From Carallia brachiata (taxonomy: Eukaryota > Streptophyta > Magnoliopsida > Malpighiales > Rhizophoraceae), in assembly GCA_021464245.1 (NCBI GenBank), contig JADCRB010000051.1:1-64000 (forward strand): 64,000 nt of DNA, given 5' to 3'. Positions 27,844 through 63,675 of the stretch are shown here, piece by piece. The notes beneath the pieces are model-generated. The model saw nothing but the letters and a program-made list of their open reading frames with translations. It ran no database searches and was not told the DNA's origin. The translations under genes were made by a program, and so were the position numbers. Within the stretch, counting starts at the first letter, position 1; each line of letters starts with the position of its first letter.

Positions 27844-28431
27844 TCAGTCGCTCCTAGGGGGCCTAAGGCGTAGCTCTAGATCCATAAAGCCCTCATTGTT
27901 CGGCAGGTTGGCAATGTCAATAGTACCAGCATTTTCTTGCTGATTGAGATCGCCTAGATGAACAGGAAAGAGACTGAGTGTTTCTCTTTCTCCCTCACGA
28001 GAAGAGTTGACCGATCTGCTTCTCACTGGAGTAATGCTTCTTACTAAGTGAAAATATTCATGGGAATTTGATCTCTGACCCACATCAAAGATTTCAAATG
28101 ATAAATGGGAAATACCTGGTGGCTGGCGATGCTGGTTGGGATTTCCTTGAGAAACAATTGTTGAGTTGGTGGAATGAATAACAGGAGGTACTCTGCCTAT
28201 TCTCACACTGCGCCTTCGGTTCTGGATCCAGAGTCTAATGTTACTTGGCTGAATTGGACCATATGGTCTCAACAGTGAGACAAGTTGAGTAAGTTGGCTT
28301 GATGTCGGACGAGCTTCTTCAATGCCATGAAAAATATTTTCCAAGATTTGTAATTGCTCCGGCACCGGTCTCCATCTGGAATTGGAAGAGTCTCCAGTTT
28401 CTAGGTTCTGATGGCTTGATGGTGGTCTCAT
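27844..28431 (-). CDS. WUSCHEL-clade homeodomain protein carried by Copia-1 (antisense, intronless)
   Basis: Predicted nuclear transcription factor of 195 residues with the three hallmarks of the WUS clade. (1) A WOX-type homeodomain at about residues 18-79: SRWRPVPEQLQILENIFH, then LRPYGPI, and helix 3 NIRLWIQNRRR with W68 and N71 kept, though the usual F of WFQN is I. (2) A WUS-box at 151-157, TLSLFPV, which in WUS mediates repression and activation. (3) A C-terminal EAR-type motif, DLELRL, at 184-189, the kind that binds TOPLESS corepressors. The middle is S/R/P-rich. The start ATG is at 28431 and the frame is uninterrupted; cellular WUS genes contain introns, so a processed origin is likely. 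It lies antisense to gag-pol inside a recent insertion. The diverged helix 3 may alter DNA recognition. A cellular gene would not sit between two intact LTRs in this way. Function is inferred only. Confidence 0.85.
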   Translation of the reverse strand: MRPPSSHQNLETGDSSNSRWRPVPEQLQILENIFHGIEEARPTSSQLTQLVSLLRPYGPIQPSNIRLWIQNRRRSVRIGRVPPVIHSTNSTIVSQGNPNQHRQPPGISHLSFEIFDVGQRSNSHEYFHLVRSITPVRSRSVNSSREGERETLSLFPVHLGDLNQQENAGTIDIANLPNNEGFMDLELRLRPPRSD

Positions 28432-28856
28432 CTTGTTGATGTGAAAGGTGAGTGAAAATTTTGAGATTCTGGAAACAACAAATGAAAGATGAAAGATGAA
28501 TGATTATGGATTAATGCTTCTCTCCCTCGATTCTCACTTTATGCCTGATAATCCGGAAATTACGCCTGATTCTCTGGCGTAATAATTGGCCAGCTGTCCT
28601 CCACTTTCACCTCACTGTCAGCTACTTCCGTCTGACCGTTCGCGACTTTTCTGACTGTGTGCCACATCTGCACCGTTTCTAATTGTATACCATGTCAGCT
28701 TCCACGTAAGCAATTTGACTGCGGTAATATTTTTGACCTACTCATGAACTATTATTGAAGGTAATGATCTACATTGTATTTTTGGTAACATAGTGACCAA
28801 TTTTGAATAAAGACCTTTTGATAGATCATTTTTTTAAGAAGAAAATTGGCATGTCA
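28432..28856 (-). promoter_or_regulatory. Candidate 5' leader and promoter of the Copia-1 homeobox gene
   Basis: Upstream of the ATG on the minus strand lies a pyrimidine-rich leader ('catctttcatctttcatttg'), and a weak TATA-like GCATAAAG at about 28537-28544, some 105 bases before the start codon. Further upstream there are GC-richer stretches with short direct repeats ('gaatcaggcgtaat' / 'ggattatcaggcataa'). This sequence is unlike Copia DNA and probably arrived with the gene. Promoter activity is not demonstrated. Confidence 0.3.
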
Positions 28857-29162
28857 CACCCCATGCATTAGCATAGGCTTGATTGTCTTCATTTCCTTAA
28901 TTTAATGATTGTATTTGAACTCTACAAGGCCTGCATTTCAAAGTTACTATAACTTATATGCTAAATTGTAAATGTGAACTTGTGATACATGCATACATTA
29001 AGGGGGAGTCTTAATCTCTTAACCTAGTTAGCATTCACATTTTTGTTTCAACCATTTTTATGATGACAAAAAGGGGAGAAAATTAAGAGAGTGTCATCAA
29101 GAAAGATTTCTAGAGGAAGCTTAGATTAAGGGGGAGCATCTATTTAAGGTTTTGTCATCATC
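28857..29162 (+). other. Copia-1 3' untranslated spacer
   Basis: Typical post-pol spacer of SIRE/Maximus-like elements, with repeated short 'aagggggag' blocks (around 29000 and 29130) and 'atgatgacaaaaagggg'. It marks the return to bona fide element sequence after the foreign block and leads to the polypurine tract. Confidence 0.7.
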
Positions 29163-29175
29163 AAAAAGGGGGAGA
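29163..29175 (+). promoter_or_regulatory. Copia-1 polypurine tract
   Basis: AAAAAGGGGGAGA immediately before the 3' LTR; primer for plus-strand synthesis in LTR retrotransposons. Confidence 0.92.
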
Positions 29176-29176
29176 T

Positions 29177-30640
29177 TGTTGGAAAATTCACACCCCATGC
29201 ATACATTAAGAAATTGTTACTAAGTGTGAATTCATGTTTTGATGATGAGTGTTTTGATAATGAGCTATGAACCAATCTAACATAAGTACGAGTGAATTTC
29301 ATTTGTATGTTCTTCAAGTATACAATTCAGGTTCAAGAAGTCCAAAGAGGTACACATATGCCATCTTACACGTGCATGGAAGTGCATGGAAGAGAAATAT
29401 CACATTGGGCCTTATTAAGCTACTATCTTATAAAGACAGCATAAGAGCAAATCTGTTTGGACAGATTCCAGGTACTAAACTCACTCACTTGAGATATATT
29501 TTGGGCCTAATATATATATTTTGGCAGGACTATAAGTCTAGTTTCAAATGAGCTTGGTCGTGCAATTTTTGGAGCCCTAGAGAAAAACTTATGAATTTTA
29601 TACCAAGAGGGTGCAAGCTGTCAGGAACTTTCAGTGCACATGGAGTGAATTGCAACGGCTGCCTAGAAGAGCACACGACGAATTTGAATGTGAAATTTTG
29701 TGTGTAGATTCTTTGTTCTGTCTATTAATCAATGCAAAAAAATCACATCAAAATTCAAAGCCATCTGCAAGATATTACCGTTCTACTAAAAGTGTGCAGA
29801 CTGTCTAACGGAACTTTAACGTCTGTATTCAAACATTTATTTGACTATGCTATACTCATTCAAAATAGTCAAATTTGGTGGGTAGAGAGCTCTGACAGTC
29901 TACTAAATAAAAAAAAGGAATCGCAATTTTTCAAGCTGTCTGTATCAAGTTATAGCCGTTCAACCAGAAGGTGTCAAACAAGAGAATCAATGCAAAGCTG
30001 TCAAGAGGGAAACAACAAGGTATGCATATGCAACCATGGCAACGGCTCTAACAAGTTGCTAACCTATCTTGCAGCTATTAAACATCACTTGAAGATGTTT
30101 TACTTGTGAAGAAAGTTATATTCAACCATTGCACAATCTCTCTCAAGGCAAAAAGGCTTTCTTTACTCTAAGTGCTTTTATTGTAAAACTAGCATTCAAG
30201 CTAGTAAGTTTCATTTGTATTGTAATACATTGTGAGAATAGGTGAGAGCTCTCAAGTGGGACTTGTGAGGATCATCTTGTAAGGAGTTAGGGTTGAACTC
30301 CAAGAAGGAAAACCTAAAAGAAAAGGGAAAGTGGTGTTGGCAAGTGGGACTTGTGCAACAAGCGTTTTGAAGGCGGACGCAAGGGTGTTTGTGGAGTCTT
30401 CTTGTAAACTGTACGGTGGTGATTGGTGCGCCCAAAGGCACCCTAGTTGAACTCTCAAGAATCTCCAAGAGAGGGATTGTTGAGAAGACCAAGGACGTAG
30501 CCATTTGGTGAACCTTGTAAAAATCGGTATTGTATTTCTTTCAATCTCTTGTCTACATTCATTTGCAGAAATTTTTATTTGAGGATTTCATTGGTAAAGC
30601 CTATTCACCCCCCCTCTAGGCTTCACCCAAGGGACCAACA
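29177..30640 (+). repeat. Copia-1 3' LTR
   Basis: Begins TGTTGGAAAATTCACACCCC and ends GGGACCAACA, followed by the target duplication CTTAT. Differences from the 5' LTR seen by eye include a missing AA in the 'gcctaa(aa)tata' run, t/g in 'ttgtgt(t/g)tagat', an added 'ga' before 'gctctgac', and c/t in 'gtttg(c/t)ggag'. Confidence 0.95.
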
Positions 30641-30645
30641 CTTAT

Positions 30646-32064
30646 CATTAAAGTGACCAAACTAATATGCTTCAAAGCATGCATAAATAATCATTTATCT
30701 TATGAATGAAAAATGAATAGATAAATTAACGTTACTAAATACTAGAACTACATGATTTGTATAAAGGTAAGACATTATTTTATAGCTAGTCATATAATTG
30801 ATGCATAGTAATTTTTTAGTTAAATATATTTGTTTATCCAAAAATATTATATGTATTTCATTAAAATTATTTTATTACCTATTAAGTTAGGGAAAAAAAA
30901 TAGGTAGAATCAGAAAAATGCCTACGAGATAGACGCATAGTAAACAACCTATTATTTTGTGCAATCAGTCAATTAATATTTGTAACAAAAATCAAGGTAT
31001 TTTTTATCGATTTTTTGTTACAAATATTAATTGTTTGGTTATACAAACCAATCAGTCAATTACTACGCATCTATTCTACGTTTGATTTTTTCGCGTCTAT
31101 GTAATGGGACTCATTAAGTTAATATATGATATTCACCTATTATACTGTGTTGTAGGACTTTCCAAAGGACAAATACCATACACTCTGATTGTTTCATAAT
31201 TGAATCCAAAATATGCTCAATTATGAGCCTTTGTAGTAATGTAGCTGTGATAATTTACTTATATGTTTCATCTATTGTTGTGTCCAATGATTGAACTTTT
31301 TTGATTTTCATGAACTAATTAATTTCCAATTAAGTAGATCTTAACTTGAAATTACTAATAGATATGCTAATTACTATAACTAATTCAAGTAGTGTGGTAG
31401 AGAAGTCACATCACAAAGTACAAGAACGAAACAACAGATTGAACTTTATACATTTGGAAATGATTATTACCAATGACATTCAAACAATCGTACCATACAG
31501 AAAGTCCAAAAGTATTTGCAATTTGTGGAAGAATGATCTACTTCTACAAACAAGTTACTAGTTAGTACTCACAGGCAGAGCTCACGACCATGAAGTTTAA
31601 TGGTTGAGAACTATGTAAGCACCCATTATTGAGATGAACAATATCATATTAAGATTTAAGACCTTGAGACTATAAATTGAGAACTCTTTTCTAATACAGT
31701 TCATTTCAAATTCATTGCCTCCTAAATATGGGCCTTTTCAAATTAACTACAACACTAAAAAGGATAAATGAAAAGTTAATGAATTAATCAATATAGTTGT
31801 TTAGGATAACATAAGAATGAAAAATCATGCTGGTCACTCCACAAATCTCATCCATAAGAAGGTTGGAGAAGGAATGAAAATGAAAGTCAACAAATTTAAG
31901 AAAGGGAAAAGATGGAACAAAATGGCAACTTAGCACTTCTTATTTTATAGGCCGCCTAGATTTTTAGGACATTAATTACAAGATTTACAGGTTATTTCAC
32001 TGAATATCTCGCTCTTTGAAATTATTTTAGGATAAAGATTGGAAAATTGAAAAGATTTAGGAAT
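30646..32064. other. Intergenic region between Copia-1 and Copia-2
   Basis: AT-rich with no recognised gene. It contains a fold-back repeat (30931-31072). The remainder, including 31100-32064, shows no supported feature; the last five bases before Copia-2 (GATCT, 32065-32069) are its target duplication. Confidence 0.5.
30931..31072. repeat. Fold-back (MITE-like) inverted repeat
   Basis: The arms pair: 'ttaatatttgtaacaaaaat' (from about 30973) is matched by 'ttttgttacaaatattaatt' (ending about 31032) around a loop of about 15 bases. The outer parts also match: 'agacgcatagtaa' on the left against 'ttactacgcatct' on the right. The structure is a hairpin-forming MITE-like sequence. Target duplication not identified. 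Confidence 0.65.
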
Positions 32065-32069
32065 GATCT

Positions 32070-32444
32070 TGTTGGTTTTATTTGGTTGGGTTGACCCACC
32101 CGGTTGAGAAGTTAGAGGAAATTGTAACTCCCTCCCCCCACTTTGTCACGATCATCTGAATGGTTTAATAAAAAAGACATATAAAAGGCGTATGCAACCG
32201 CTATTCGTTGGACAATCAGCCGCCACTGAAAACTTTCTCTGGAGAGAAAGATACATAAATCACAAATCCTCCCAATTCTCTACCAATCCTCGAGTAAGAG
32301 TTTTTTGTGCCGTGAAAAAAGAGTGCTATCTACTTTGTGATATCACTCAGATTGCAAGGGAACGATCAAAGCTAGTAATCAGTCTTCTCTTTTTCAATTT
32401 AGAGTCTTTTAAGGTAATTGTAAGCTTCCTTTTTATTTCCTTCA
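32070..32444 (+). repeat. Copia-2 5' LTR
   Basis: Starts TGTTGGTTTTATTTGG and ends TTTATTTCCTTCA. A TATA-like 'catataaaaggcg' lies near 32178-32190. It matches 39647-40042 with numerous substitutions and indels. Confidence 0.92.
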
Positions 32445-32445
32445 T

Positions 32446-32457
32446 TGGTATCAGAGC
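32446..32457 (+). promoter_or_regulatory. Copia-2 primer-binding site
   Basis: TGGTATCAGAGC directly after the 5' LTR, matching the 3' end of initiator-methionine tRNA. Confidence 0.9.
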
Positions 32458-34488
32458 CTTTAAGTCTGATTCTGGCATGATAGACTACTGTTTTTTCTTC
32501 TCTATGTTGTTTGACTATTATTTTTCATGCTATTTTTTGGAGGTTTTTATTCGAAAAATTGTTTCTTTCACCTACATGAATTTTGGGTCACAAAAAATTA
32601 CCTATAGGTAGCCTATGATATGTCATATATTCTATGAATTTTTCTTGATTTTTGGTTGCATATTCATGAGAAAAAATGTGTTTTCTCCAGACTAATTTTT
32701 GCAAAATTGAGATAGAAAATTGTAACATTAGGACCCAAAATCTACAAGTATGGAAAGTTCTCATTAAGAGCATTCTAATGGTTTATGTTTCATTAAATTT
32801 TGATGTACCATTTGAGAGAAATGGCCTCTGAAATTTTTGCAAAACGTTCTGGAAAATTGGAGAAAAAGATAAATAGTATCTAAACTTTTCCCACTGTCAA
32901 GTGTCATCGCTAGTTGTTCAACTCCAATTTACAATCTATTTTTGAAAAAATTAAGTTGACAAATCAACTCAGCATGTCAAAGAATAATAGTCAGCCAAAT
33001 TTCGTAGTCATCCGGTGACCAGAAGTTGGTGAGTGACATGCACTCTCCGGCGCCGGCGGTGGAGGAAGAGATGCTGGTGTTTAATTGTGTGTGGAAGGGT
33101 ACACTTGATAAATGTGTCCACCAATCAAACTGTGACACGTGGTAGATTGGTCAAAAGAATAAAATCTTAGACAAATAATCTCGTGACACGTGTCAAGATC
33201 AATATTTATGTTTTCACCCAGTAAAAATGCCCAACCAGTGAAGAGTTGACATGTGGCTAGTGGAAGGCAGCCAGCAAATGAGGCTGCACCACATGGCACT
33301 TGTTTTTGATTATTCCAAAAAATGAAATTTTTTCTATACAAATTCATAATAATTAGTAAGAATGTTAGAAAAATATAAAATTTGTATTAAAATTTTTCTA
33401 CTTTTACGCTCTATAAGATTCTGACATTATTTTTCATAATTGAGAAAAAAAATGTTTAAATGATGTGGATCACTAATATTGATTAAAGTTGTTCTTTTAG
33501 GGGTTAAAAATGGCTTGCGCGGTGCAAACTCTAACCAAGAGGGCTATTAGTGAATGCGATAGAAGATTGAATTTTGAGCTCTTTGAACAACTTAAAGATC
33601 TATGTACACAATGAAATTTTTTCTGCACTTTTAAATTGAAGATGAAATGTGATAGAGAGCATATAGAACATGTCAAACACATAAGATTTTTGATTGATCA
33701 TCTAAAAAAATCAATGTCTAAGAGGCTTAAAGAAAATGTAAAGATTGACGTTTTGCTTAAGTCCTTGATGGATTATTGGAGGGCAGAAGTGTGTTGTGAG
33801 TTGGAACTCACCAAGTGCACTATTGAGTGGTATGGCGATCCAGAGGATGCCCTTAAAAAAGCATGGAATGTCATATTGAGCATGCTACAAAGTGCACTAC
33901 TATGTTGTCTATGAGTCATAATCTCCATTCTGCAAGGCTTGTTCATTTTGGCAGGAGGGAGATTGGATCATGGCTTTTGAGAGTTGGACCTAGAGTGATT
34001 CGAGATACTGAGAATGATGAGACTTCACTTGCTAGCAGTTATCTTGTTTAAGCTCGTTAACTTTTCTATAATACCTGTAAAAAGTTGTTTAAGCCTTACT
34101 ATGTGATATTTGATGTTAGTGTACATATTGTTCTATGTTTGATGTTATGTATGTAAACTTTATCATAAATGTTAATCATGTTATTATATGTGTTTAATTT
34201 CTTTTGAAATGTTTAACACATAAACATTGCATACATAATCAATTTAATTAAAGGGTTTTCCGAGTGGGAGTTGCTAGGTTGGTAAGATTTCAGGAAATTT
34301 TTGCACGATTTTGAGATAAATTGCAATGATTTGAAATTGGTATAAAAGACGATGACTAGGAACACAATGAACTTTCAATTCTTTAACTAATTTTTGGGGT
34401 TATTGTTGATTTATTTCAATGTTAGTGCGAAATAAAATGTTGAAGTGCTAGTACTAATTATTAATAAATGTCTTAAGGGTTGTTAACC
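32458..34488 (+). other. Copia-2 leader region
   Basis: About 2 kb between PBS and gag, unusually long for a Copia element. It has broken open pieces, for example around 33509-33615 (starting MACAVQTLTKRAISE) and 33636-33914 (containing EHVKHIRFLIDHLKKSMSK). I do not recognise them. They may be decayed coding sequence of the element or captured DNA. Confidence 0.4.
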
Positions 34489-39646: not shown

Positions 39647-40042
39647 TGTTGGTTTTATTTGGATGGATAGGCCCACCCATGATGGGTAGACCCACCCAAT
39701 TGAGAAGATGAAGGGAGTTACCACTCCCTCCCCCCACTTTCTCACAATCATCTAAATGGTTTAATAAAAAAAAGACTTATAAAAGGCGTGTGAAACCACT
39801 TTTTGTCAGACAATCGACTACCACTGAAAACTTTCTCTGGAGAGAAAGATACAGAAATCACAAATCCTCACAATTCTCAATCAATCCTCGAGTAAGAAGT
39901 CCGTGTGCCGTGAAAAAGGAGTGTTATTTGCTTTGTGATATCACTCAGATCATGAGGGAATGATCAAACCCGATAATCAGTGTTCTCTTTTTCAATCTAG
40001 AGTCATTTAAAGTAACTGTACACTTCCTCTTTATTTCCTTCA
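39647..40042 (+). repeat. Copia-2 3' LTR
   Basis: Starts TGTTGGTTTTATTTGG, ends CTTTATTTCCTTCA and is followed by GATCT. It is longer than the 5' LTR because of an insertion or lost sequence near 'catgatgggtagacccaccc'. Confidence 0.92.
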
Positions 40043-45676: not shown

Positions 45677-45978
45677 TGTTAGCCCCCAAAATGAAGAAAA
45701 TGGTGCTTGATTGAAATTGGTCAAGAGATAAGCAACGGGAGAGCAAGAGAACCTTTTTTTTTTTTTTTTAACTCTGTTTTTTCGTCTTCTTTTTCTTCGA
45801 TAATTTGCCAGACCTTTCCATTATATATAAATCAAAAGGTTACATTTTTTCTTAGCCATACATGTGTTCATCTAATGACCCTAGATCTCCTTCTAACTTA
45901 GATTAGTTTACTTTAGTTACTATTACAAGACATAAACACTATTAGCAATTGGACTTTACATCAAATTACTCTTTAACA
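45677..45978 (-). repeat. Copia-3 LTR (3' LTR of the minus-strand element)
   Basis: Plus-strand ends TGTTAGCCCCCAAAATGAAG and CTCTTTAACA. A minus-strand TATA-like sequence is in the segment 'ccattatatataaatc'. Confidence 0.92.
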
Positions 45979-45990
45979 CTCCCCCTTAAT
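45979..45990 (-). promoter_or_regulatory. Copia-3 polypurine tract
   Basis: On the minus strand ATTAAGGGGGAG directly adjoins the 3' LTR, the standard position and composition. Confidence 0.9.
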
Positions 45991-46004
45991 GTGATGGTTT
46001 GCAA

Positions 46005-49000
46005 CTACCATTGCTGCTCTAAGTTGTTGGAACCTATCCTTGGCAATGCTTTTGTGAAAATGTCAGCTACTTGTTCCTCGGACCTGCAAATAACTAGTTG
46101 TACTTCTCCATCTTCCATCGCCTCTCTAATAAAGTGATGTTTTAATGCTCGGTGTCTAGTTCTACTATGAAAAACAGGATTGTTGGCTATAGCAATTGTT
46201 GATTTGTTATCACAATAAAGCACAGTAGGCTCTTCTTGTTTCTCTTCAATGTCTTCTAAAATTCTTCACAACCAAATGGCTTGAGAAGTAGCCATTCCAG
46301 CTGGAACATATTTAGCTTCTGTAGATGATTGAGCTACTGATTGTTGCTTCTTGAACACCACGAAAATACTCCTGAACCCAAAGAAAATACATACCTAGAC
46401 GTGCTCTTCATATCATCAACACAACCTCCCCAACCACTATCCCAAAATCCAACCAACTTCAACTCAGAAATTCTTTCATACTTAAGGCCATAATTCAACG
46501 TTCCATGAACATCTCGGAATACCCTTTTTGCTATTCCCAAATTTATGTGGCTTGCAGAGTGCATAAATCTTGAAAGTAACTTTGTTGTATGCATCAAATC
46601 TGGCCTCGTAGCTGTGAGATATATCAAATTTCCAACCAAGCTTTGATACAAAGTTGCATCCACCTTGTTTCCACCATTTTCTTTCATCATCTTCTCATTG
46701 ACAATCAAAGGTGTTTCAATAGAATTACACCCTTCTATTCTGAATTTTTTGAGGATTTTCTCTACAAATCTGCTCTAGCAAATGACCACAGCATTTTCAC
46801 CTTTGATAAACTTCAATTCTATGAAAATAATGTAGGAGCCCCATATCATTCATTGTATATCTTCTCATTTCACTCTTGAACTCTTCAATAAGCTTCTCAT
46901 TGTTTCCAGTTATTACCAAATCATCAACATACAAAAAAGAAACAAGTATGCCAGCAACTCCATTGTTTTTAACATATAAAGTTGGTTCCCTTCTACTCCT
47001 TTCAACCACCCTTTCTCCAGAAAATAGCCATCAATCTAACTATACCAGGCTCTAAGTGCTTGTTTCAACCTGTACAAAGCCTTTTTCAGCTTGTATACTT
47101 TATGTTCTTCACCGTTGACAATAAACCCTTGAGTTTGCTTAACATAAACATCCTCCATTAATTCTCTATTCAAAAATGGAAATTTAACATCAAGTTGGTG
47201 TAACAACCAATCTTTATGAGCTGTTACTACAATAATGGCTCTAACAGAATCCAAGCGAGCTACCAGAGCGAATGTTTCATCATAATCAATTCCGGGTTGT
47301 TGTGAGTAGCCTTTAGCTACTAATATCGCTTTATATCTTTGTATGGAGCCATCAAGTTTATGCTTCACCTTGTAAATCCATTTTAAACCAATCACTTCTT
47401 TGTCTTGTGGGTGGTCAACCAGCTGCCATGTATTATTTTTCTCAATAGCGTCAATTTCTTCTTGCATAGCTTTTCTCCATGATCCATCTTTCACAACTTC
47501 TTCAAAATTTTCTAGTTCCATCATCCAAAAATTGCATCTGGCATACACATCGCTCAAACTCCTCATTTTCTTAGGTGTTGAGCTAGGTGAACTACTTAAA
47601 GAAGATGGCAAGTTAGCTCCTATATCATAATTTGGCTCTTCACTATCACTTTTTTCTTCTGGAATTGGATTTTGTTGAATAACATCCATTGGGACAAACT
47701 TTTTTCCTACTTGGCTTTTTCCCAATTCCAAATTTTTTTCTCATCAAATACAACATCACAACTCACAATTATTTTGTTTGTTTTTAAATTGAACAACTTG
47801 TATCCCTTCAACTTAGCCAACAAAAATACACTTCTCACTTGCTTCATCAAGCTTGTGCCTCTTCTCTTTTGGAATATGAACATAGCACACACATCCAAAT
47901 ACTCTCAAGTGCTTAACTGCTGGCTTCCTACCACTCCAAGCTTCAAATGGTGTCTCATTCTTTAATGCTTTAGTTGGACTTTTATTTATCAAGTAAATAG
48001 ATGTATACACAGCTTCAGTCCAAAATCTTCTATGTAAACCCACTTTAAACAAGATGGATTTTGCCATTTCCATCACCATTTGATTTTTTCTCTCTGATAC
48101 TCCATTTTGTTGTGGAGTATAACCAACAGTAAGCTGTCTTTGCACTCCTTCATCTTCACAAAACTTATTCATTTGAAGTGTACTCCTTTCCTCGATCACT
48201 CCTTAATATTTTTATGCTACAACCACTTTGCTTTTCAACAAGACTCTTAAATTTCTTAAAAATGCTGAAAACTTCATATTTTTGTCTCATAAAATAAACC
48301 CATGTCATGCGACTATAATCTTCTATGAACAAAATAAAGTACTTGTTTTGAGAGTGTGATGGGGTATTCATTGGACCGCAAACATTGGTACGCACCAATT
48401 CAAGTAACCCCTTTGCTCTCCATGCGACTCCTTTAGGAAATGGTTGCTGGTGTTGTTTTCCTTAGTACACAACCACCACAAACTTCATTTTTCTCTTATA
48501 TGCTCGGCAAACCATGCACTAAATTCTGTTGCTGCAATAATTTCAGGCTTCTAAAATTCAAGTGCCCAAATCTGTGATGCCACAACCAACAATCATTAAT
48601 AAGACTAGCTTTCATAGCCACTTCTTTTGAGTACTTGAACCTTAAAGGAAAGCTCCACTGCAACCCCATTTTTATGTCAACCACCTTCTCATTTCTTTGA
48701 TCAAGAATCACACAACCAAGGTCCTTGAACAATACAGAATAGCTATGCTCCAACAATTGTCCAAGGCTAAGTAAGCTTTGGTCTAAGCTTGGTACATATA
48801 GAACATCATTTATCACTTTTGTTCCTCTTTTAATTGCAACTCCAATCCTCCCCTTACCTGTCACTTCCATAGTTGCACCATTTCCAAGCCTCACTTTTGA
48901 ATTGAAAGTTTCATCCATATCTAAGAATATTTCCTTACACGGTATCATATGGTTGTTACAACCACTATCCCAATACCATAGATCGATCCTTGCTCTCCTC

Positions 49001-49011
49001 CATGACTTCAT
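46005..49011 (-). pseudogene. Copia-3 pol, broken
   Basis: In minus-strand order. Protease: LWYWDSGCNNHMI (about 48970). GAG-pre-integrase: LWHHRFGHLNFRSLKLLQQ. Integrase: the first catalytic Asp of the usual TDVCGP reads TNVCGP, but LRSDRGKEY and GVSERKN are kept. Reverse transcriptase: from NTWQLVDHPQDKEVIGLKW through the active-site box FLYVDDLVITGNN (about 46920). RNase H: ending MLYCDNKSTIAIANNPVFHS and VADIFTKALPR. Domains lie in at least seven separate open pieces because of stops and shifts, so no full polyprotein can be made from this copy. Confidence 0.85.
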
Positions 49012-49061
49012 GAAAAAAACATAAAGTAGATTTCCTTCACAATCTTTATCCTCTGTGAAAT

Positions 49062-50016
49062 TTACTTGGTGGTCATTCTTAAATTTGCAATCTTTTTGAA
49101 TGTGGCCAAATTTCTTACAATGATGACATTGGGGTTTTCCTTCAAACCAACAGTTTTTGCAATGTGGCTAGTCTTACTACAAATATGACACCTTCTCGTG
49201 CAATCACCTTCAACTGGTCTACTTTCATTGTTACTTCGACCTCTTCCTCTTGTGCCTTGGCCTCTACCTCTTCCACATCTACCACCTCTAGGTGACCAAA
49301 TCCTCTGGTTTTCATTTATTGAGCGTCCTTTGTCTTGATTTTTAACATCAAGAGAGAGCTTAGATTGGAACACACTCTCAATTGGCGTTTCAGAGCGTCA
49401 CGACAATCTTTGTTCAAATGATTTCGAGTAACCCATTAACTCTTGAATACTCATTTCAGCAGTGTCTTTAGTTTGCTTTATTACAACCACCATTGCATCA
49501 AATTTTTCAATCAAACTATTCACAATTTTCTCAACAATTTTCTTATCATCAATCTTCTCACCACATGTTTTCATTTGATTCACCACTTGTATGACTCGAC
49601 CAAAGAATTCATCAATTGATTCATTCTCCTTCATTTTCAAATTCTCATAATCTCTCCTTAGATTTTGAAGTTTGACAGCCTGTACCTTATCATCTCCATG
49701 AAATTCCTGCTTCAATATCCCATGCTTATTTGGCTTTGGTTGATCGCATGATTCTAGGGAAAAGAGCATCTGCAACTCCTCTTTGTATCATTGACAATGC
49801 CTCTGCATCTAGGCTTCTTTGCTTCCTCAACTCCTTCTTCTCAGCTTCTGTCAACCTCGTTTCTTGTTGTGGCCCCTCAAATCCAACATCAACTAGCTCT
49901 CAAGCATCTATTAATTGGAAAAGTGTTCTCATCTTTATCGCCCAGAACTCATAGTTCTCTCCTTCAAAGATGGAGACTTGAATATTGCTGAAATTGCTGG
50001 AATTTGTGGCTGCCAT
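49062..50016 (-). pseudogene. Copia-3 gag, broken
   Basis: Starts MAATNSSNFSNIQVSIFEGE at 50016 and shows the UBN2-type gag (NYEFWAIKMRTLFQ; later LRRDYENLKMKENESIDEFF). It then has an R/G-rich segment and zinc-knuckle remnants around 49090-49190 (CHICSKTSH). An in-frame stop follows the first about 38 codons, and further shifts occur before the knuckle. Confidence 0.82.
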
Positions 50017-50058
50017 ACCCAATACTCTTCAGACCCACTTTTTCTCTACAAAACCCAC

Positions 50059-50070
50059 ACTCTGATACTA
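50059..50070 (-). promoter_or_regulatory. Copia-3 primer-binding site
   Basis: Minus-strand TAGTATCAGAGT, three bases after the 5' LTR; an initiator-Met tRNA site with two changes from TGGTATCAGAGC. Confidence 0.8.
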
Positions 50071-50073
50071 GAT

Positions 50074-50383
50074 TGTTGGCCCCCAAAATGAAGAAAATGG
50101 TGCTTGATTGAAATTGGTAAAAAGATAAGCAACGAGAGAGCAAGAGAAACTTTTTTCTTTTTGTTTTTTTCATTACTCTGTTTTTTCGTCTTCTTCTCCT
50201 TCAATCATTTTCGAGACCGTTCTATTATATATAAATCATAAGGTTACATTTATTTTTAGCCATACATGTGTTCATCTAATGACCCTTAGATCTCCTTCTA
50301 ACTTAGATTAGTTTACTTTAGTTACTTTTACAAGACAAAGCAGTATTTAGCCATTGGACTTTACATCACATTACTCTTTAACA
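50074..50383 (-). repeat. Copia-3 LTR (5' LTR of the minus-strand element)
   Basis: Plus-strand ends TGTTGGCCCCCAAAATGAAG and CTCTTTAACA, followed by the host duplication TACTC. Similar to 45677-45978 with scattered differences. Confidence 0.92.
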
Positions 50384-54280: not shown

Positions 54281-54305
54281 CTTCACCTCCCATCTCTTGT
54301 TCCTT

Positions 54306-54460
54306 AAAAAAAAAAAGGAAAAGAAGCAGAGAGAAAAAAAAAGAAAAAAAAAAAAAGAAAAAAAAAAAGAAAAAAAAAAAAAAAAAGAAAAATAAAAAAA
54401 AAAAAAAAAGAAAAATAAAAAAAAAAAAAAGTAAAAAAAAAAAAAAAAAAAAAAAATTTT
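54306..54460 (+). repeat. Purine-rich (A/G) tract after the PBS
   Basis: About 150 bp of poly-A broken by single G or T residues. Low complexity, prone to sequencing and assembly error. Confidence 0.85.
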
Positions 54461-54464: not shown

Positions 54465-57400
54465 GTGTTCAGCACATCAAATGGCACCGAAAAGAGTACA
54501 GTCACCGGTACCAAAAGAAGGCAACGGCTCCATTGCCTGCATCAACTACCCTACCTGGGTACGCAGGTCCAGAAACCCGGGGACGGACACAATTTCTTGC
54601 CGTCCAAACCCGACAAAATATCGAAACGGAGAGTCTACAGCTCGCACAACAGGATCTCTCCCCTGACTCTCTTGCCGCATGGAGGAGTCGATCACCCACC
54701 CCGATCGAAGTCGGGGGCAACACGACGAAGCTGCTCAAATCCACTCATTCTAGAGATCCACACAGAGAATCAGAAGAGTTCTCTCCCCCAGTCTTTCGCG
54801 GAGCCTCATCTGTTGCCGTCATGATGACCAACACAACCAGTACAGAAGAAAGGATTTCAGAATTGGAGAACAAAATTTTGCAGCTGATCAGAGTTGGAGG
54901 AAAAAGATCAACAGATCGCCGCTCTCAAAGGAAAAGCCCCGATCCAAATTGATCCCGAATCCGCGAGAGCAACCATATCCACCCGGTTTCACTCCAGAAG
55001 CCACACCAGCCGACGTCTTCACTGCAGAAAAGCGACCAGGTAGTTCTACACAGCTGCCACCCTCAAATTCTATAGCTTCGCTATCTGTTCAACAATTGCA
55101 GGAAATGATAGCCAATACGATCCGACTGCAACAAGCTACATCCTTCCAAGGATCACAGATGTACGTCAAACCGTACACCAGACGGATCGAAAGTCTCAAC
55201 ATGCCTTGGGCTACCAGCCGCCCAAATTTCAACAATTCGACGGACGAGGCGATCCCAAACAGCACATCGCCCACTTCGTTGAAACCTGCAACAACGCAGG
55301 GACTTATGGAGATCTCTTGGTGAAGCAGTTTGTTCGTTCACTCAGGGAGACCGCTTTCACCTGGTTCATAAATCTTGAACCAGAATCGATCGACAGTTGG
55401 GAACAGCTACAACGAGAGTTCCTCAACAGATTTTTCAGCACTCGAAGGACGGTAAGTATGATGGAGCTTACCAGCACCAAACAAAGGAAAGGAGAGCCCG
55501 TTGTCGAATACATCAACAGATGGCGTGCCCTCAGCTTGGACTGCAAAGATCGCCTGACGGAGACTTCTGCCGTGGAGATGTGCATCCAGGGAATGCATTG
55601 GGAGCTGTTATACATCCTGCAGGGCATCAAACCCCGAACCTTCGAAGAACTGGCGACCCGCGCACATGATATGGAGATAAGCATCCAGACTTCCGGAGGC
55701 ACGGTTCCCATCCAGTTGGACCAGCAAGGAGGCAGAAGGGAAATTAAGAAACCCAACAGTCGGAAAAGGAAAGAAGTGATGACTGTTGAAGCCGCACCAG
55801 TAAAAGTGGGAGCTAAAGCCAAGGTAAATCCTCCGACTCAAATAACTCAGCCAAAACAACAGGAAAGGCGGAAGGTGACATTGCGAGAGTTGGAGCAGAA
55901 GCAGTATCCATTCCCCGACTCAGACGTCCCGACATCTTGAACAACTCTGGAGGCGAAGCTGATCGAACTCCCAGAGTGCAAGCGGCCGAATGAAAAGGAT
56001 CGAGTCAGCGATCCAGATTCTGCAAATATCACCGGATAGTAAGTCATCCAACCGAGAAGTGTTTCGTCCTGAAGGAGCTAATCATGAAGCTCAAGCCAGA
56101 ATAAAATCATTCTGGACCAGGAAGGCATAACCTCGCAAACCAACCACCATCACTTCAAAACCATCAGAAGAGGTGACACACGTAAGGAGGAGCCGCTCGA
56201 CAACAAAAAGTCGACAACGGAGAAGGTATATGAAGCTCTCCAAACCCTTCTCGCTAACCCTCAGCTGTTTGCAAATCAAAGAAGTGCAAAATCAGTAGCA
56301 CTCTCCAGACCTCAGCTGAACCTCTGCCATCAAGTAATTCCAATCGGGAGCATCAGACGGACCCAAAATCACGTCGGATGTTACTCTGCTATCTCATTTT
56401 CAGATGAGGATCTCCTGCTGGGGTCCAAACCCCACAATCGGCCGCTATGTATCAGGCTATGTGAAGAGAACATAGCGACGTAGTCAATATTATCCCAAAA
56501 TCCACCATAAAGGAGCTCGGCATCGGCATTGATGAATTATCAGACAGCCGCTTGATGATTCATGGCTTTAATCAAGGAGGACAGAAANACAACGCAGGGA
56601 CTTACGGAGATCTCTTGGTGAAGCAGTTTGTGTTCACACTTAGGGAGACCGCTTTCACCTGGTTCATAAATCTTGAATCAGAATCGATCGACAGTTGGGA
56701 ACGGCTACAACGAGAGTTCCTCAACCGATTTTTCAGCACTCGAAGGACGGTAAGTATGATGGAGCTTACCAGCACCAAACAAAGGAAAGGAGAGCCCGTT
56801 GTCGAATACATCAACAGATGGCATGCTCTCAGCTTGGACTGCAAAGATCGCCTGACAGAAACTTCTGCCGTGGAGATGTGCATCCAAGGAATGCATTGGG
56901 AGATGTTATACATCCTGCAGGGTATCAAACACTGAACCTTCGAAGAACTGGCCACCCGTGCACATGATATGGAGATAAGCATCCAGACTTCCGGGGGAAC
57001 GGTTTCCATCTAGTTGGACCAGCAAGGGAGCTGAAGGGAGATTAAGAAACCCAACAGTTCTGGAAAAGGAAAAGAAGTGATGACTGTTGAAGCCGCACCA
57101 GTAAAAGTGGGAGGTAAAGCCAAGGTAAATCCTCTGACTCAAATAACTCAGTCAAAACAACAGGAAAGGTGGATAGTGACATTGCAAGAGTTGGAGCAGA
57201 AGCAGTATCCATTCCCCGACTCAGACGTTCCCGACATCCTTGACCAACTCCTGGAGGCGAAGTTGATCGAACTCCCAGAGTGCAAGCAGCTGAATGAAAA
57301 GGATCGAGTCAACGATCCAAGATTCTGTAAATATCACCGGATAGTAAGTCATCCAACTGGGAAGTGTTTCGTCCTGAAGGAGCTAATCATGAATCTCAAG

Positions 57401-57529
57401 AGCCAGAATAAAATCATTCTGGACCAGGAAGGCGTAACCTCGTCAAACCAGACCACTATCACTTCAAAACCATCAGAAGAGGCGTCACACCAAAGGATGC
57501 CACGCGGTGACAAAAAGTCGACAATATAG
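54465..57529 (+). pseudogene. Gypsy (Tat) gag, frame-broken and artificially duplicated
   Basis: The N-terminal part is split among frames (54465-54952). The retrotransposon-gag domain is clear at 55206-55940 (QFDGRGDPKQHIAHFVETCN; LRETAFTWFINLEPESID). It reappears at about 56589-56935 after the N at 56588. A better-preserved downstream part follows (57077-57529), with KYHRIVSHPTGKCFVLKELI, the Cys/His-containing linker of Tat gag-pol. The second half-copy is probably an assembly overlap (separate entry). Stops and shifts in both copies prevent a complete Gag frame. Confidence 0.8.
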
Positions 57530-57927
57530 AATGTATATGAAGCTCTTCAAACTCTTCTCGTTAACCCTCAGTTGTTGCGCAATCAAAAGAAAAATGGCAG
57601 AATCAATCAGCAATATTCTCCACCTCAGTTAGATCTCTACCATCAAGTAATTCCAACTCGACGGAGCAACATACGGCCCAAAATCACGTCTGATGTTACT
57701 CCGCTACATCATTTTCAGATGAGGATCTCCTACTGGGGTCCAAACCCCACAATCGGCCGCTGTATGTATCAGGCTATGTGAGAGAACAGAAGGTCCGACG
57801 TATTCTGATCGACGATGGCTCGGCAGTAATATTATCCCAAAATCCACCATAAAGGAGCTTGGAATTGGCATTGATGAATTCAGACAGCCGCTTGATGATT
57901 CAATGGCTTTAATAAGGAGGACAGAAA
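55291..57927 (+). repeat. 1.3-kb direct repeat meeting exactly at an N
   Basis: 55291-56587 and 56589-57927 are near-identical. The first copy ends, and the second begins, exactly at the N. The first copy contains many single-base losses relative to the second, especially after 55920, as in a low-quality contig end. This pattern is expected when two overlapping contigs are placed end to end. A real tandem duplication cannot be excluded. Confidence 0.8.
56588..56588. other. Single N at a probable contig join
   Basis: Lies exactly between the two copies of the 1.3-kb direct repeat in Gypsy gag. Confidence 0.85.
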
Positions 57928-58662: not shown

Positions 58663-60256
58663 ATGGGTACGCTGCCGTCCACACATGGCGCTACTTCTCA
58701 AACATCACAGTCCCGACCTGGCTTAGGCTATCAAGAGAAGTCACCTGTGCGGATCACGCTAAAGAGTCGAAGCCGAGCAGCTGATGCACATGCCATCACC
58801 ACCACCACCAAACAAGACAGGCTTATCCAGTCAAACAAAGAAGGTGAAGTCAGAGGCTCTACATTTCATGTCACAATTAGCGAGGAAGCTGAGTCTAACT
58901 CATCAGACGGTGAAGTAAAGGAGGCTCCCCCGGAACTTGAAGATGGTGGCCAAACAACTATTGATGAACTCAAAAAGGTCAATCTTGGCTTTCTGGAAGA
59001 TCCTCGACCTACATTTGTAAGTGCTTTACTTACTACAGAAGAAGAGCAAGAATATGTTCAGGTATTAAGTCAATACAGGGACGTGTTCGCATGGAGTTAC
59101 AAAGAAATGTCTGGACTTGACCCAAAAATCGCGGTGTATCGTCTAGTAGTAAAAAGGTGTTCGTTCTGTCAAGCAGCCACAAAGACGGTTTCGCTCGGAA
59201 CTCATTCCACAAATCGAGGAGGAGGTTAACAAGCTGATCAATGCTGGCTTCATCCGAGAGGTCACCTACCCAACGTGGATTGTCAACATAGTCCCGGTAA
59301 GAAAGAAGAATGGACAATTGAGGGTATGTGTTGATTTTCGAGATCTTAACCGGGCCTGTCCGAAAGATGACTTTCCATTGCTCATAACAGAGATCACAGT
59401 CGATGCAACAACGGGTCACGAAGGATTATCCTTCATGGATGATTCTTCAGGCTATAACCAAATCAGAATGGCACCAGAAGACGAGGAGTTGACAGCATTC
59501 CGCACCCCAAAAGGTATATACTGCTACAAAGTTATGCTGTTTGGATTAAAAAATGTTGGCGCCACTTATCAACGTGCTATGCAAAAAAATTTTCATGACA
59601 TACTGCACAAGATTGTAGAATGTTATGTTGATGACTTAGTTGTAAATACTAAGAAGTGCAAAGACCACCTCGAGGATCTCAAGACGGTGTTTGAAAGATT
59701 TCGCAGGCATCAGTTTAAAATGAACCCTCTCAAGTGTGCATTTGGTGTCACATCAAGAAAGTTTCTTGGGTTCGTGGTGCGCCATCGTGGAATCGAAGTT
59801 GATCAGTCCAAGGTTGAGGCAATTCAAAAGATGCCTGAACCTAAAAACATGTACGAGCTGCGAAGTTTCTACAAAGTTATGCCGTTTGGATTAAAAATGT
59901 TGGCGCCACTTATCAACGTGCTATGCAAAAAATTTATGACATGCTGCACAAGATTGTAGAATGTTATGTTGATGACTTAGTTGTAAAGACTAAGAAGCGC
60001 AAAGACCACCTCGAGGATCTCAAGACGATGTTTGAAAGACTTCGCAGGCATCAGCTTAAAATGAACCCTCTCAAGTGTGCATTCGGTGTCACATCAGGAA
60101 AGTTTCTTGGGTTCGTGGTGCGACATCGTGGAATCGAAGTTGATCAGTCAAAGGTTGAGGCAATTCAAAAGATGCCTGAACCTAAAAACCTGCACGAGCT
60201 GCGAAGTTACAAGGAAAGCTGGCCTACATTCGCCGTTTTATTCCAATTAGCTGGAG
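58663..60256 (+). pseudogene. Gypsy (Tat) reverse transcriptase with an internal duplication
   Basis: The pre-RT linker is open at 58663-59229 and includes YRDVFAWSYKEMSGLDPKIA. The RT runs from about 59180: EEVNKLINAGFIREVTYPTW, LRVCVDFRDLNRACPKDDFP, GYNQIRMAPEDEE. The catalytic box CYVDDLVV occurs twice (about 59624 and 59965) because about 345 bp are duplicated in tandem. SFMDG of the family reads SFMDD. Frameshifts at about 59160 and at the duplication junction interrupt it, so this copy cannot give an active enzyme. Confidence 0.85.
59524..60208 (+). repeat. Tandem duplication of about 345 bp within reverse transcriptase
   Basis: 59524-59868 and 59869-60208 repeat the same RT segment, from 'ctacaaagttatg' to 'gagctgcgaagtt'. 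The copies differ by several percent (for example 'aattttcatgacatactg' versus 'atttatgacatgctg'). Short homology, 'gaagtt(tct)acaa', lies at the junction. It may be real (slippage or template switching) or an assembly error. Confidence 0.8.
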
Positions 60257-60784
60257 ATGTCAACCTTTCCATCGGTTGATGAAGAAGATGTCAACTTCGA
60301 GTGGGACGAAGCTTGCAGCAAAGCCTTTGAGAGCATAAAGAAGTACCTTTCCAATCCACCAATCCTAGGAGCTCCAATTCAAGGAAAGTCGTTGATTCTC
60401 TACATTGCAGCGCAGGAAAGATCTTTGGGAGCCTTGCTTGCACAGGAAAATGAGCAGGGAAAGGAAGTTGCCCTGTACTACTTGAGCAGAACACTAAACG
60501 GTCCGGAGCTGAGTTATTCGCCCATTGAAAAGACATGTCTAGCACTGTTCTTTGCCATTGACAAGCTGAGGCACTACATGCAAGCTCACACGGTACGTCT
60601 CATTGCCAGAGCTGATCCTGTCAAATATATCTTATCTAGACCAATCTTGTCAGGACGACTTGCCAAGTGGGCAGTAATCCTACAGAGCTACGACATTGTC
60701 TACGTGCCTCAAAAAGCAGTCAAAGGACAAGCTCTAGCAGACTTTTGCAGATCACCCTGTCCCGTCTTGGGAGTTCACAGATGA
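60257..60784 (+). pseudogene. Gypsy RNase H (RT-linked)
   Basis: Open frame with LILYIAAQERSLGALLAQE, then YYLSRTLNGPELSYSPIEKT and LRHYMQAHTVRLIARADPVK, ending VPQKAVKGQALADF. This is the RT-linked RNase H/connection of Tat elements. The N-terminal joint with RT is frameshifted. Confidence 0.82.
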
Positions 60785-60833
60785 TCTTCCAGATGAAGAG
60801 GTCTTTTACATTGAGACACTGCCACCATGGACG

Positions 60834-61481
60834 ATGTTCTTTGATGGTGCAGCAAGGCGTGATGGTGCTGGTGCCGGCATAGTGTTTGTCACTCCTCAAC
60901 GACAAATACTACCATATGCTATCATTCTCGGTGAGTTATGTTCAAATAATGTTGCTGAATACCAGGCTTTGATCATTGGTCTTCAAATGGCTGTCGATAT
61001 GAAGATTCCAACTATAGAAGTCCATGGAGATTCCCAGCTCGTCATCAACCAACTTACAGGATTGTATGATGTAAGAAAGAGGACTTGCCCTTACCATCAA
61101 CGTGCTCGACAGCTAATGGATGAATTTGAAAGCATCACCTTGGAGCATGTGCCTCGACGAGAAAACACTCAGGCAGACGCGTTGGCTAACTGGCCACCTC
61201 TCTTGCAAAGTCAGAAATCCAGGCTACAGTTTGCCGTATGCCAGAAATGGATAGTGCCACAGAAGGATGATGAAGAAACTACAGCAGCCAACGGTATCTA
61301 TACGTCTCGCGAGGAGAGGATTGGCGCCAACCAATCATTGACTACCTACAGCACGGGAAGCTGCCCGAAGATCGTCGTCATAAGACAGAAATTCAACGAC
61401 GAGCTCCCCGCTTCATATATCTCAAGGATGCTCTGTATCGAAGGTCTTTTGATGGAGTTTTCTTCGCTGCCTAGGCAATGA
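60834..61481 (+). pseudogene. Gypsy second RNase H (aRNH), hallmark of the Tat lineage
   Basis: FFDGAARRDGAGAGIVFVTP, then NVAEYQALIIGLQMAVDM, HGDSQLVINQLTG and ENTQADALAN supply the acidic residues of an archaeal/plant-type RNase H. A second RNase H after the first is characteristic of the Tat lineage of Gypsy. The frame shifts after about 61200 into the linker before integrase. Confidence 0.85.
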
Positions 61482-62556
61482 AGAGGCAAAACAGCTCTCG
61501 CTGAAGCACATTCTGGTGTTTGTGGCGGACATCAATCGGGCCTAAGTTGCACTTCAGCTCAGAAGGATGGGATACTACTGGCCAACTGGTACGTGATTCA
61601 ATTGAGTTTGCTAAAACCTGTCAAGCTTGTCAATTTCATGCGAATTACATACATCAACCACCGGAGCCACTGCATCCAACTGTCTCATCCTGGCCCTTTG
61701 AAGCTTGGGGTCTCGACTTAGTGGGGCCCTTGCCAAAGTCATCCCTGGGTCACCTTTACATCCTCGCAGCAACAGACTACTTCTCAAAATGGGCCGAAGC
61801 CATTCCACTTAGAGAGGTAAAGAAGGAGCATGTTGCCAATTTCATCCAAACTCAGCTGATCTATCGCTATGGAGTCCCTCGATTCATCATCACTGATAAT
61901 GGCAAGCAGTTCTACAACAGCTTGATCGACAAGCTCTGCGAGAAGTTCAAGTTCAAGCAGTACAAGTCATCCATGTACAATGCCCCAGCAAATGGCTTGG
62001 CTGAAGCATTCAACAAGACCTTATGCAACCTGTTGCGGAAGGTAGTCTCTAAATCCAAAAGAGATTGGCATGACAGAATTCCGGAGGCATTATGGGCGTA
62101 TCGTACAACTTACCGGACTCCAACACAGGCGACGCCATACTCACTTGTCTACGGTGTCGAAGCAATACTGCCGTTGGAAACACAGATTCCATCCTGCGCA
62201 TGGCTGTTCTGGAAGGACTCACACAGGAGGAGAATGCTCGCCTACGTCTGGATGAGTTAGAAGCCCTCGATGAAAGGAGGCTCGAAGCACAACAGCAACT
62301 TGAGTGCTACCAAGCCCGGCTCACCAACACGTTCAACCGCAGGGTCCGCCGATCTTTTCAAGTTGGAGACCTTGTTCTTGCAGTGCGACGGCCCATCAAC
62401 ATGAAGCATCGGCCTGGTGACAAGCTTACTTCCAAATGGGACGGGCCATACTTAGTGCAGGAGGCCTATACTCACAACGCTTACATGCTGTCAGACCAAG
62501 AAGGCGTCCGAATCGGCCCAATCAATGGTAAATTTCTGAAACAGTATTATGTGTAA
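61482..62556 (+). pseudogene. Gypsy (Tat) integrase
   Basis: The zinc-binding part is partly visible (HSGVCGGHQSG-like, then CQACQFHANYIHQPPEPLHP). The catalytic core has the DDE residues in WGLDLVGPLPKSSLGH, FIITDNGKQFYN and NGLAEAFNKTL. The C-terminal part (VGDLVLAVRRPINMKHRPGD) ends at the stop after FLKQYYV (62556). There are frameshifts near 61500 and 62200. No chromodomain is seen, as expected for Tat. Confidence 0.85.
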
Positions 62557-62567
62557 ATATGTTTAAA

Positions 62568-62605
62568 AAAACAAAAAAAAAAAAAAAAAAAAAAGAAAAA
62601 AAAAT

Positions 62606-62646
<41 letters not shown>
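62568..62646 (+). repeat. Poly-A tract after integrase
   Basis: About 80 bp of almost pure A starting about 12 bases after the integrase stop. Low complexity. Confidence 0.9.
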
Positions 62647-62649
<3 letters not shown>

Positions 62650-62654
62650 GGAAG

Positions 62655-62950
62655 TCCCGATCTGAAAGTCCAAGCGAAAATCCAAACCCAAAATCCAACC
62701 CAAACACTTGAGCCCAATTCAGAAAACTAAAGCCAACCAAAAGCTGAAAACTAAGTCCAGACTCAAACCCAAACACTCAACCCAAATCCAAAATCCAAAT
62801 CCAAAACCCAAACACTCGACCCAAATCCAAAATCCAAGTCAAAAGCCCAAACACTCGACCAAATCCAATCCAAAGCCCAAAACCCAAAAATTCCAAGTTC
62901 CAGACACAGTCCAGAACCCAAGTTCAAAATCCAATCCAACTCTGGCCCGC
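62655..62950 (+). repeat. C/A-rich degenerate tandem repeat between integrase and homeobox gene
   Basis: About 300 bp built from a loose unit such as 'cccaaacactcgacccaaat' with 'ccaaaatccaa' and 'aagcccaaa' variants. G is scarce on this strand. Minus-strand frames across it give repetitive FGF/LDL-like peptides and are not genes. Confidence 0.75.
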
Positions 62951-63059
62951 ATGAGTATAAACTGTGAACGGCCCAAAAATATAAAGCAACGGAGGGTTTG
63001 AGTCTGAAACTCAGCATCAGTCTCAACCGATCTTCACCACCTACCAGACCTTTGCTCCT

Positions 63060-63675
63060 TGCCACAAGAAAGATGGAACCAGTTGCAGAACTCAAGATAA
63101 GGGAGAAGAAAGGTCACCCCGCACAAGGTGGCAACCAACCATGGCACAACTGCAAATTTTGGAGGAAGTCTTCCACAACAATGGAGGTATTATGCCTAAT
63201 GCATCTCAGATTTACCAACTTGTCTCACGATTGCGCCCGCTCGGGGCAATCGAAGGAAAAAATGTGTTTTATTGGTTCCAGAATCGGAGAAGCAGGAAGA
63301 AACCAGGACTGAGAGCTGCTTTTTCCAAAGAACAGTCTGTCGTTCCGATAATAGATCCACCGGTACAACTTCGCCCTCAAATGAAGCAGGTCCGAGTTCT
63401 ACCACGACAATAGTCTCTTCAGGCTATAACGATCAAAGCCGTAGCTTGTGGGAGCATGCGTACTGGTCCTGGTGGTCTTACGGTCAGCCAAGGGTTCATC
63501 CCTCCTAGGTACTTAAGTCTAGGAGGAATTTTTTAGCAGAAAGAGTCATTCGGAAACTTTGCCTCTCTTTCCAGAATATTCCGGCAGCATCAACCAGCCG
63601 GAAAGCGACATCAACATCATCGGCCCACCAGACGAGGTCGAGCTTGACTTGGAACTGCACCTCGGGCCCCGTTAG
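63060..63675 (+). pseudogene. WUSCHEL-clade homeobox gene carried by the Gypsy element (three frames)
   Basis: A compact, intronless-looking homeobox gene in sense orientation, downstream of integrase. The homeodomain (about 63126-63306) reads TRWQPTMAQLQILEEVFH, then LRPLGAIEGKNVFYWFQNRR, with the canonical WOX helix 3. A second frame (63310-63508) contains STTTIVSSGYNDQSRS, resembling the middle of the Copia-1 protein. A third frame (63523-63675) holds the WUS-box ETLPLFPEYSG (act at 63556) and the C-terminal EAR-type motif LDLELHL (63643-63663), ending at TAG 63673. An upstream ATG (63073) is one base out of frame with the homeodomain; the in-frame ATG is at 63141, inside the domain. The gene is probably a frame-damaged copy, or the shifts are sequencing errors like those in neighbouring gag. 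It is homologous to the Copia-1 gene. Confidence 0.8.

Follow-up and report, generated by a model that had tools for sequence, protein, structure and literature searches.

A 64,000-nucleotide stretch of Carallia brachiata DNA (assembly GCA_021464245.1, contig JADCRB010000051.1, positions 1 to 64,000 of the forward strand; hereafter, the window) contains two long terminal repeat (LTR) retrotransposons of different superfamilies, each with a WUSCHEL (WUS)-type homeobox sequence of the WOX group as apparent cargo. One of these sequences lies within a Copia element, and the other accompanies a Gypsy element. An earlier note, made from the letters alone, had located both, and both were found where it had placed them, with a Pfam Homeodomain match in the Copia open reading frame (ORF; E 4.3e-6) as well as in the Gypsy ORF (E 7.5e-13). 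The note had further proposed that the two represent a single element-borne family. The evidence favors this proposal over a pair of unrelated captures: eight shared homeodomain residues, matching C-terminal tails, and a common layout. It is not proven, and we consider it about as probable as not.

The Copia-borne ORF (27844..28431, minus strand) begins with an ATG at 28431 and runs uninterrupted and without an intron for 195 codons to a TGA stop. It is antisense to gag and sits, with its reading frame intact, between a pol remnant and the 3′ LTR. The same strand encodes a homeodomain of 61 residues (28198..28380), the WUS-box TLSLFP (27964..27981), and the EAR-like motif LELRL (27865..27879); the protein also contains the stretch STNSTIVSQG. 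An AlphaFold2 model based on a 46-row alignment had three helices in the homeodomain, with a mean predicted local distance difference test score (pLDDT) of 77-95 in blocks across residues 21-80. Outside the homeodomain, pLDDT was mostly <65 (overall mean, 62.8; predicted template modeling score, 0.40). The best PDB matches to this model in Foldseek were the homeodomains of STENOFOLIA (E 4.3e-4) and WUS (E 8.3e-4). When the Copia ORF alone was used to search a protein database, none of the 214 candidates reached E ≤ 1e-3.

The Gypsy-borne copy is in the sense orientation, 0.43-1.1 kb past the pol stop, and falls into three frames of the plus strand. The first (62985..63413) holds an uninterrupted homeodomain (63123-63305), the second holds the STIVS-like stretch SSTTTIVSSG (63398..63424), and the third holds the tail (63535..63675), with the WUS-box TLPLFP (63556-63573), the motif LELHL (63649-63663), and a TAG stop (63673-63675). 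The motifs named in the earlier note are all present, but they do not lie in a single frame. The copy is broken and, as sequenced, dead. An intron was rejected as the cause of the frame changes, since the splice phases tried (by eye only) did not join the frames. Of the 190 candidates in a protein database search with the Gypsy ORF, 189 had E ≤ 1, and the best 120 listed were cellular-looking WOX proteins, as judged from names and sequences.

Both cargoes encode a WOX homeodomain, a WUS-box, and an LxLxL (EAR-like) motif C-terminal of the WUS-box, and the solved relatives of each at E ≤ 1e-3 were limited to WUSCHEL and STENOFOLIA. For comparison, 169 plant and metagenome WOX-like proteins were fetched from the best 120 matches listed in each of two database searches. 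The pattern L(E/K)L.L occurs downstream of the WUS-box in 12 of the 72 fetched proteins that have TL(E/S/P)LFP, and those checked by name were WUS-like. The homeodomain of both cargoes has an extra residue, giving a length of 61 that is found in 12 of 127 distinct cellular stretches (nine WUS-like sequences plus P0040, P0047, and P0078); the other 115 have 60. The spacing from WUS-box to LxLxL is 28 in the Copia cargo and 25 in the Gypsy cargo, against 27-40 in 11 of the 12 cellular proteins that have both motifs and 88 in the remaining one (P0166). Together, the extra residue, the paired motifs near the C terminus, and their spacing point to both cargoes being WUS-type rather than WOX2 or WOX3. 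The cargoes differ from cellular WUS in residing in LTR elements, in having QNRR in place of QNHK in helix 3, and in having LVS.LRP in helix 2; the Copia protein is also shorter (195 amino acids versus 221-311 in the WUS proteins compared). A search with an alignment of both cargoes gave 983 candidates, 262 of them with E ≤ 10 (best 120 listed). No relatives were found in viral contigs, for which the queries were the two proteins individually, an alignment of both, and the Gypsy integrase, or in prokaryote contigs, for which the query was the Copia protein. As a separate observation, the fetched protein nearest to the Gypsy homeodomain (62-63% identical) is P0001 (unnamed; WOX3-like; 91 residues), from a contig of 590 bases. 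Its helix 3 reads QNRKSRSKN; the other 168 fetched proteins have QNHK.

Beyond generic WUS motifs, the earlier note had named a series of features common to the two cargoes: QLQILE(N/E)(I/V)FH, LRP, a STIVS-like stretch, (D/S)(L/I)NQ(Q/P)E, and a terminal LEL.L. All of them were present. Each of the strings QLQILE, LVS.LRP, QNRR, STIVS, NQ(Q/P)E, and (E/D)LEL.L was found in 0 of the 169 fetched proteins, in which LRP occurs somewhere in 2 and (I/V)FH occurs somewhere in 4. In a tblastn search of the window with the Copia protein, the homeodomain (E 4.6e-14) and the tail (E 5.5e-4) of the Gypsy copy were recovered as two distinct matches. The Gypsy copy is the best partner of the Copia cargo, at 62 bits, while the four cellular proteins compared reach 50-54. 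At eight homeodomain columns (Q47, F53, H54, L69, V70, P75, R91, and R92; WUS numbering), the cargoes agree on residues that no more than 1 of 34 cellular rows has. As a control, any cellular row has at most one such column in common with the Copia cargo and at most four in common with the Gypsy cargo (with P0001). Eight shared columns of unusual residues are what a single family predicts. The tails of the two cargoes align with a score of 71, a value reached by 0 of 2000 shuffles; against 117 cellular stretches, the best scores were 51 for the Copia tail and 42 for the Gypsy tail. These cellular stretches were started at the first WUS-box-like match, which in a few (e.g., that of P0126) is a false match.

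Several results weigh against a single element-borne family. By score, the Gypsy copy is nearer to cellular proteins than to the Copia cargo, with two WUS rows at 72-80 bits and a WOX3 row at 73-77. The linker from WUS-box to LEL is not significant on its own: 330 of 5000 shuffles reach the pair score of 24, and the best cellular stretches give 28 and 23. Half of the shared residues, Q47, F53, R91, and R92, also occur among the Arabidopsis WOX9, WOX11, and WOX13 homeodomains and therefore may have been retained rather than newly shared; H54, L69, V70, and P75 remain private to the cargoes. No common 5′ flank was detected (365 of 500 shuffles reach the score), and the DNA beyond the two stops showed no likeness (4547 of 5000 shuffles). 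A shared 3′ untranslated region was rejected because the first local match near the stops (8 of 500 shuffles) covers the last codons of the Copia cargo. Neither a host source gene nor a third element copy was seen in the window or among the database proteins and contigs searched.

The tree tests are likewise not decisive. They were based on 61 columns, without host sequences and without database sequences for WOX4, -5, -9, -11, and -13; one run included five additional anchor sequences, and a second run omitted them. The Copia-plus-Gypsy pair had support of 96/53 with the anchors and 85/74 without them, and the Copia terminal branch was extremely long (8-10 changes per column). In approximately unbiased tests, placement of the Copia cargo beside WUS (p-AU 0.77) or WOX2 (0.81) was not rejected, nor was placement of the Gypsy cargo beside WOX3 and P0001 (0.79) or beside WUS (0.40). 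The Copia-WUS, Copia-WOX2, and Gypsy-WOX3-P0001 placements scored above the free tree, which is therefore not the best one. The free tree did not group the cargoes with WUS, and holding both beside WUS was not rejected (p-AU 0.145 with the anchors and 0.087 without them).

The Copia carrier occupies positions 23432-30640 and is one of several LTR elements in this window of plant DNA. Its 5′ LTR (23432..24898, plus strand; 1467 bp, TGTTGG...CCAACA) and 3′ LTR (29177..30640, plus strand; 1464 bp) are bordered by a perfect 5-bp target duplication, CTTAT (23427-23431 and 30641-30645), confirming that the cargo lies between the two LTRs of an inserted element. A primer binding site, TGGTATCAGAGC (24901..24912, plus strand), which we take to be of the initiator tRNA-Met type, and a polypurine tract, AAAAAGGGGGAG (29163..29174, plus strand), were read from the sequence. 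On the same strand are a gag ORF (25048..26421; PF14223, E 1.3e-25) and the start of pol (Pol_BBD, 26449..26820; PF22936, E 2.9e-6). The LTRs differ by two transitions and one transversion per 1460 compared sites, with 11 gap columns besides. With plant substitution rates of 0.7-1.3e-8 per site and year, the insertion is roughly 0.08-0.15 million years old. The carrier moved recently, cargo included. Past the start of pol, no integrase or reverse transcriptase (RT) was recognized and no long ORF was present, so the carrier is probably dependent on help for mobility. Pol pieces from the other Copia element in the window matched this carrier over 19 residues at the pol start (E 0.003) and in two weak matches (E 0.32 and 0.52). 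The G+C content (GC) of the Copia cargo is 0.447, compared with 0.326 for gag, 0.36-0.37 for the flanks, and 0.476 for the Gypsy cargo. Being above that of gag and flanks, it fits an incoming sequence; the direction of transfer is not given by it.

The Gypsy carrier is represented on the plus strand by a gag ORF piece (55044..55940; PF03732, E 2.3e-15) and by broken pieces of pol (59153..62260) that include RT (PF00078), an extra RNase H (PF13456), and the integrase core (PF00665); the last pol ORF ends at 62556. The extra RNase H is of the RVT_3 type and precedes the integrase, an arrangement that is described as marking the Ogre and Retand groups within the Tat lineage (PMC6317226). By this mark, the carrier is classified as part of Ogre/Retand. 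Its 3′ LTR lies beyond the end of the window, and the location of the WOX copy inside the element is for this reason inferred. The element is damaged at other places too. The gag region is present as a tandem duplicate (55291-56587 and 56589-57927, 88.7% identical), and its two copies meet at a lone N, 56588, which is either an assembly seam or a place where two repeat copies were run together. Given this position of the N, errors of sequencing or assembly may have contributed to the Gypsy breakage. In the RT region, a 340-bp piece is also tandemly repeated (59524-59867 and 59869-60208, 94.8% identical), with no N in between. Long A-rich tracts lie just before the gag region (54304-54456) and just after pol (62563-62646).

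If the two cargoes form one family, LTR retroelements would have acquired a WUS-type homeobox coding sequence a single time, and it would have diverged among them as accessory cargo. Its present descendants would be the antisense ORF ahead of the Copia 3′ LTR and the sense copy behind Gypsy pol. Acquisition would probably have proceeded by way of an mRNA copy that lacked introns. Among genomic and metagenomic WOX3 models, some (e.g., P0050 and P0019) run out soon past the homeodomain, which suggests a cellular intron there, and the Copia ORF is intron-free; the cargo therefore probably came by way of mRNA. Passage between the superfamilies would most likely have involved template switching between co-packaged RNAs, a described route for retrotransposon RNAs (PMC13317346). 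For such a transfer, which the earlier note had put forward, there is no direct evidence: no DNA around the cargo is detectably common to the two carriers.

The main rival is that a divergent cellular WUS-type gene of the host, present or past, already had the shared residues and was captured separately by the Copia and Gypsy elements. The cargoes are 48% identical across 61 homeodomain columns, so their split is old even though the Copia insertion is young. This combination fits a long-carried cargo and fits equally a divergent host gene captured twice. The lack of common flanking DNA and the opposite orientation of the cargoes in their carriers favor double capture, as does the fact that plant LTR elements commonly capture genes (PMC7264820, PMC13317346), while the absence of the signature strings from the 169 database proteins (best 120 listed per search) argues against such a host gene. 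We regard double capture as unlikely, with enough in its favor to be taken seriously. A history in which two different genes of the WUS clade were captured independently and their homeodomains then converged would agree with the four single-cargo placements left unrejected by the p-AU values. Against it stand the eight rare residues (at most one in the Copia controls), the matching tails, and the WUS-type layout of both cargoes, and we judge it distinctly improbable. That the Copia cargo is a piece of a Gypsy element inserted in the Copia element, which would mean one capture and no exchange of cargo as such, agrees with a cargo GC nearer to that of the Gypsy cargo than to that of Copia gag, and it was rejected as very improbable because no further Gypsy DNA was detected in the Copia internal region, and the cargo homeodomains are only 48% identical.

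What the cargoes might do is a separate question, judged independently of their origin. WUS-boxes and EAR-like motifs recruit TOPLESS-type corepressors in WUS biology, and the WUS-box and LELRL of the Copia protein would be expected to do likewise. By analogy with maize Grande gene23, an antisense accessory ORF that has its own promoter and encodes a nuclear protein (PMC7264820), the Copia cargo may be transcribed from an antisense promoter of its own. The small protein that it encodes would be nuclear, bind homeodomain sites, and repress element or host promoters in trans.

Two comparisons speak against such an activity. In WUS structures, bases are read by R38, Q89, N90, and R94 and the backbone is held by K82, N83, and Y86 (PMC7203112). 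By hand comparison, all seven contacts are kept in the Gypsy homeodomain, but the Copia homeodomain keeps R38, N83, Q89, and N90 and has S82, L86, and S94 in place of the other three. From its residues, the Copia protein is expected to retain homeodomain-type DNA binding, with its choice at the guanine position altered or looser. WUS sites were also not clearly enriched. In 24 tests (six patterns in four regions), the strongest excess was that of TGAA in the Copia LTR (33 versus 23.5 expected; 3 of 300 shuffles), which fails correction, and some counts were below expectation. Self-regulation of the element via WUS sites was rejected, as no excess survived correction.

The cargoes may instead be passive passengers with no function for the elements. 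The broken Gypsy copy, the loss of three WUS DNA contacts in the Copia protein, the lack of RT and integrase in the Copia carrier, and the unremarkable WUS site counts are all in line with this. Against it, the Copia ORF has stayed open for 195 codons and has retained its homeodomain, WUS-box, and LELRL despite strong divergence. In addition, third codon positions differ most between the cargo homeodomains (26, 22, and 35 of 61 codons differ at positions 1, 2, and 3), with nonsynonymous and synonymous divergences (dN and dS) of 0.58 and 1.25 by maximum likelihood; by the NG86 method, dN was 0.50 and dS was saturated. Protein constraint on the cargoes is suggested by these values, if weakly. 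Passenger status is a real possibility, somewhat short of an even chance. In its fullest form, the idea has a mobile WUS-type regulator moving between the Copia and Gypsy superfamilies and repressing in trans in meristem or germline cells, where the resulting change in cell fate or element expression would cause new insertions to be inherited; this is improbable on present evidence.

In kind, the cargo belongs with the accessory and captured ORFs already known from plant LTR elements, and homeobox cargo is new within the literature searched. The nearest parallels are the Grande gene23 and Retand TRP28 ORFs, which are also antisense between pol and the 3′ LTR and for which a nuclear or DNA-binding protein is expected (PMC7264820, PMC11963269). 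Those ORFs are in Gypsy elements and have no clear cellular origin, whereas here a WOX sequence is antisense in a Copia element and sense in a Gypsy element. For the sense ORFs of Retand, no known domain is reported (PMC11963269). The AlkB-type demethylase of orchid Gypsy elements is similar in that a host-type domain is retained as cargo of an LTR element. The survey of 121 angiosperm genomes that describes it found 15 unusual domains, all in Gypsy elements and none in Copia elements, and the term "homeo" does not appear in its main text (PMC9289625). The Copia cargo runs counter to that pattern. Transduced genes, such as Bs1 and the rice and sorghum captures, also consist of cellular coding sequence within an LTR element; they are usually present in few copies and in the sense orientation with gag-pol (PMC7264820), unlike the related cargoes found here in two superfamilies, one of them antisense. 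The literature searched, which covered main texts but not supplementary files, preprints, or most subscription journals, contained no report of a plant LTR element with a homeobox or WUS sequence as cargo; homeobox genes go unmentioned in the main text of a review of accessory ORFs and of surveys (PMC7264820, PMC11963269, PMC6317226).

Other repeats were also present in the window. An older Copia element lies on the minus strand at 45677-50383, with ends that are 89% identical (45677-45978 and 50074-50383) and with RVT_2 pol inside; tblastn detected no WOX cargo in it. Direct repeats at 32087-32444 and 39683-40042 are 84% identical and 7.6 kb apart and are likely LTR remnants of an old element, with no WOX match between them except weak low-complexity ones. 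The sequences at 75-534 and 9073-9549 are related to each other, and each is partly self-complementary (~70%), resembling a fold-back repeat or one of the miniature inverted-repeat transposable element type.

For most accessory ORFs of plant LTR elements, neither an origin nor a function can be recognized. The cargo described here belongs to the WUS-type homeobox factors, which in their cellular forms control stem cells, and its two carriers, a recently moved Copia element and a Gypsy element, lie 33 kb apart. If the cargoes are one family, two superfamilies would share a developmental regulator that exists as mobile DNA, and a concrete protein would be available for testing what accessory ORFs do. 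Should a mobile WUS-type regulator prove to be at work, it would be the plant counterpart of a retrovirus carrying a developmental regulator.

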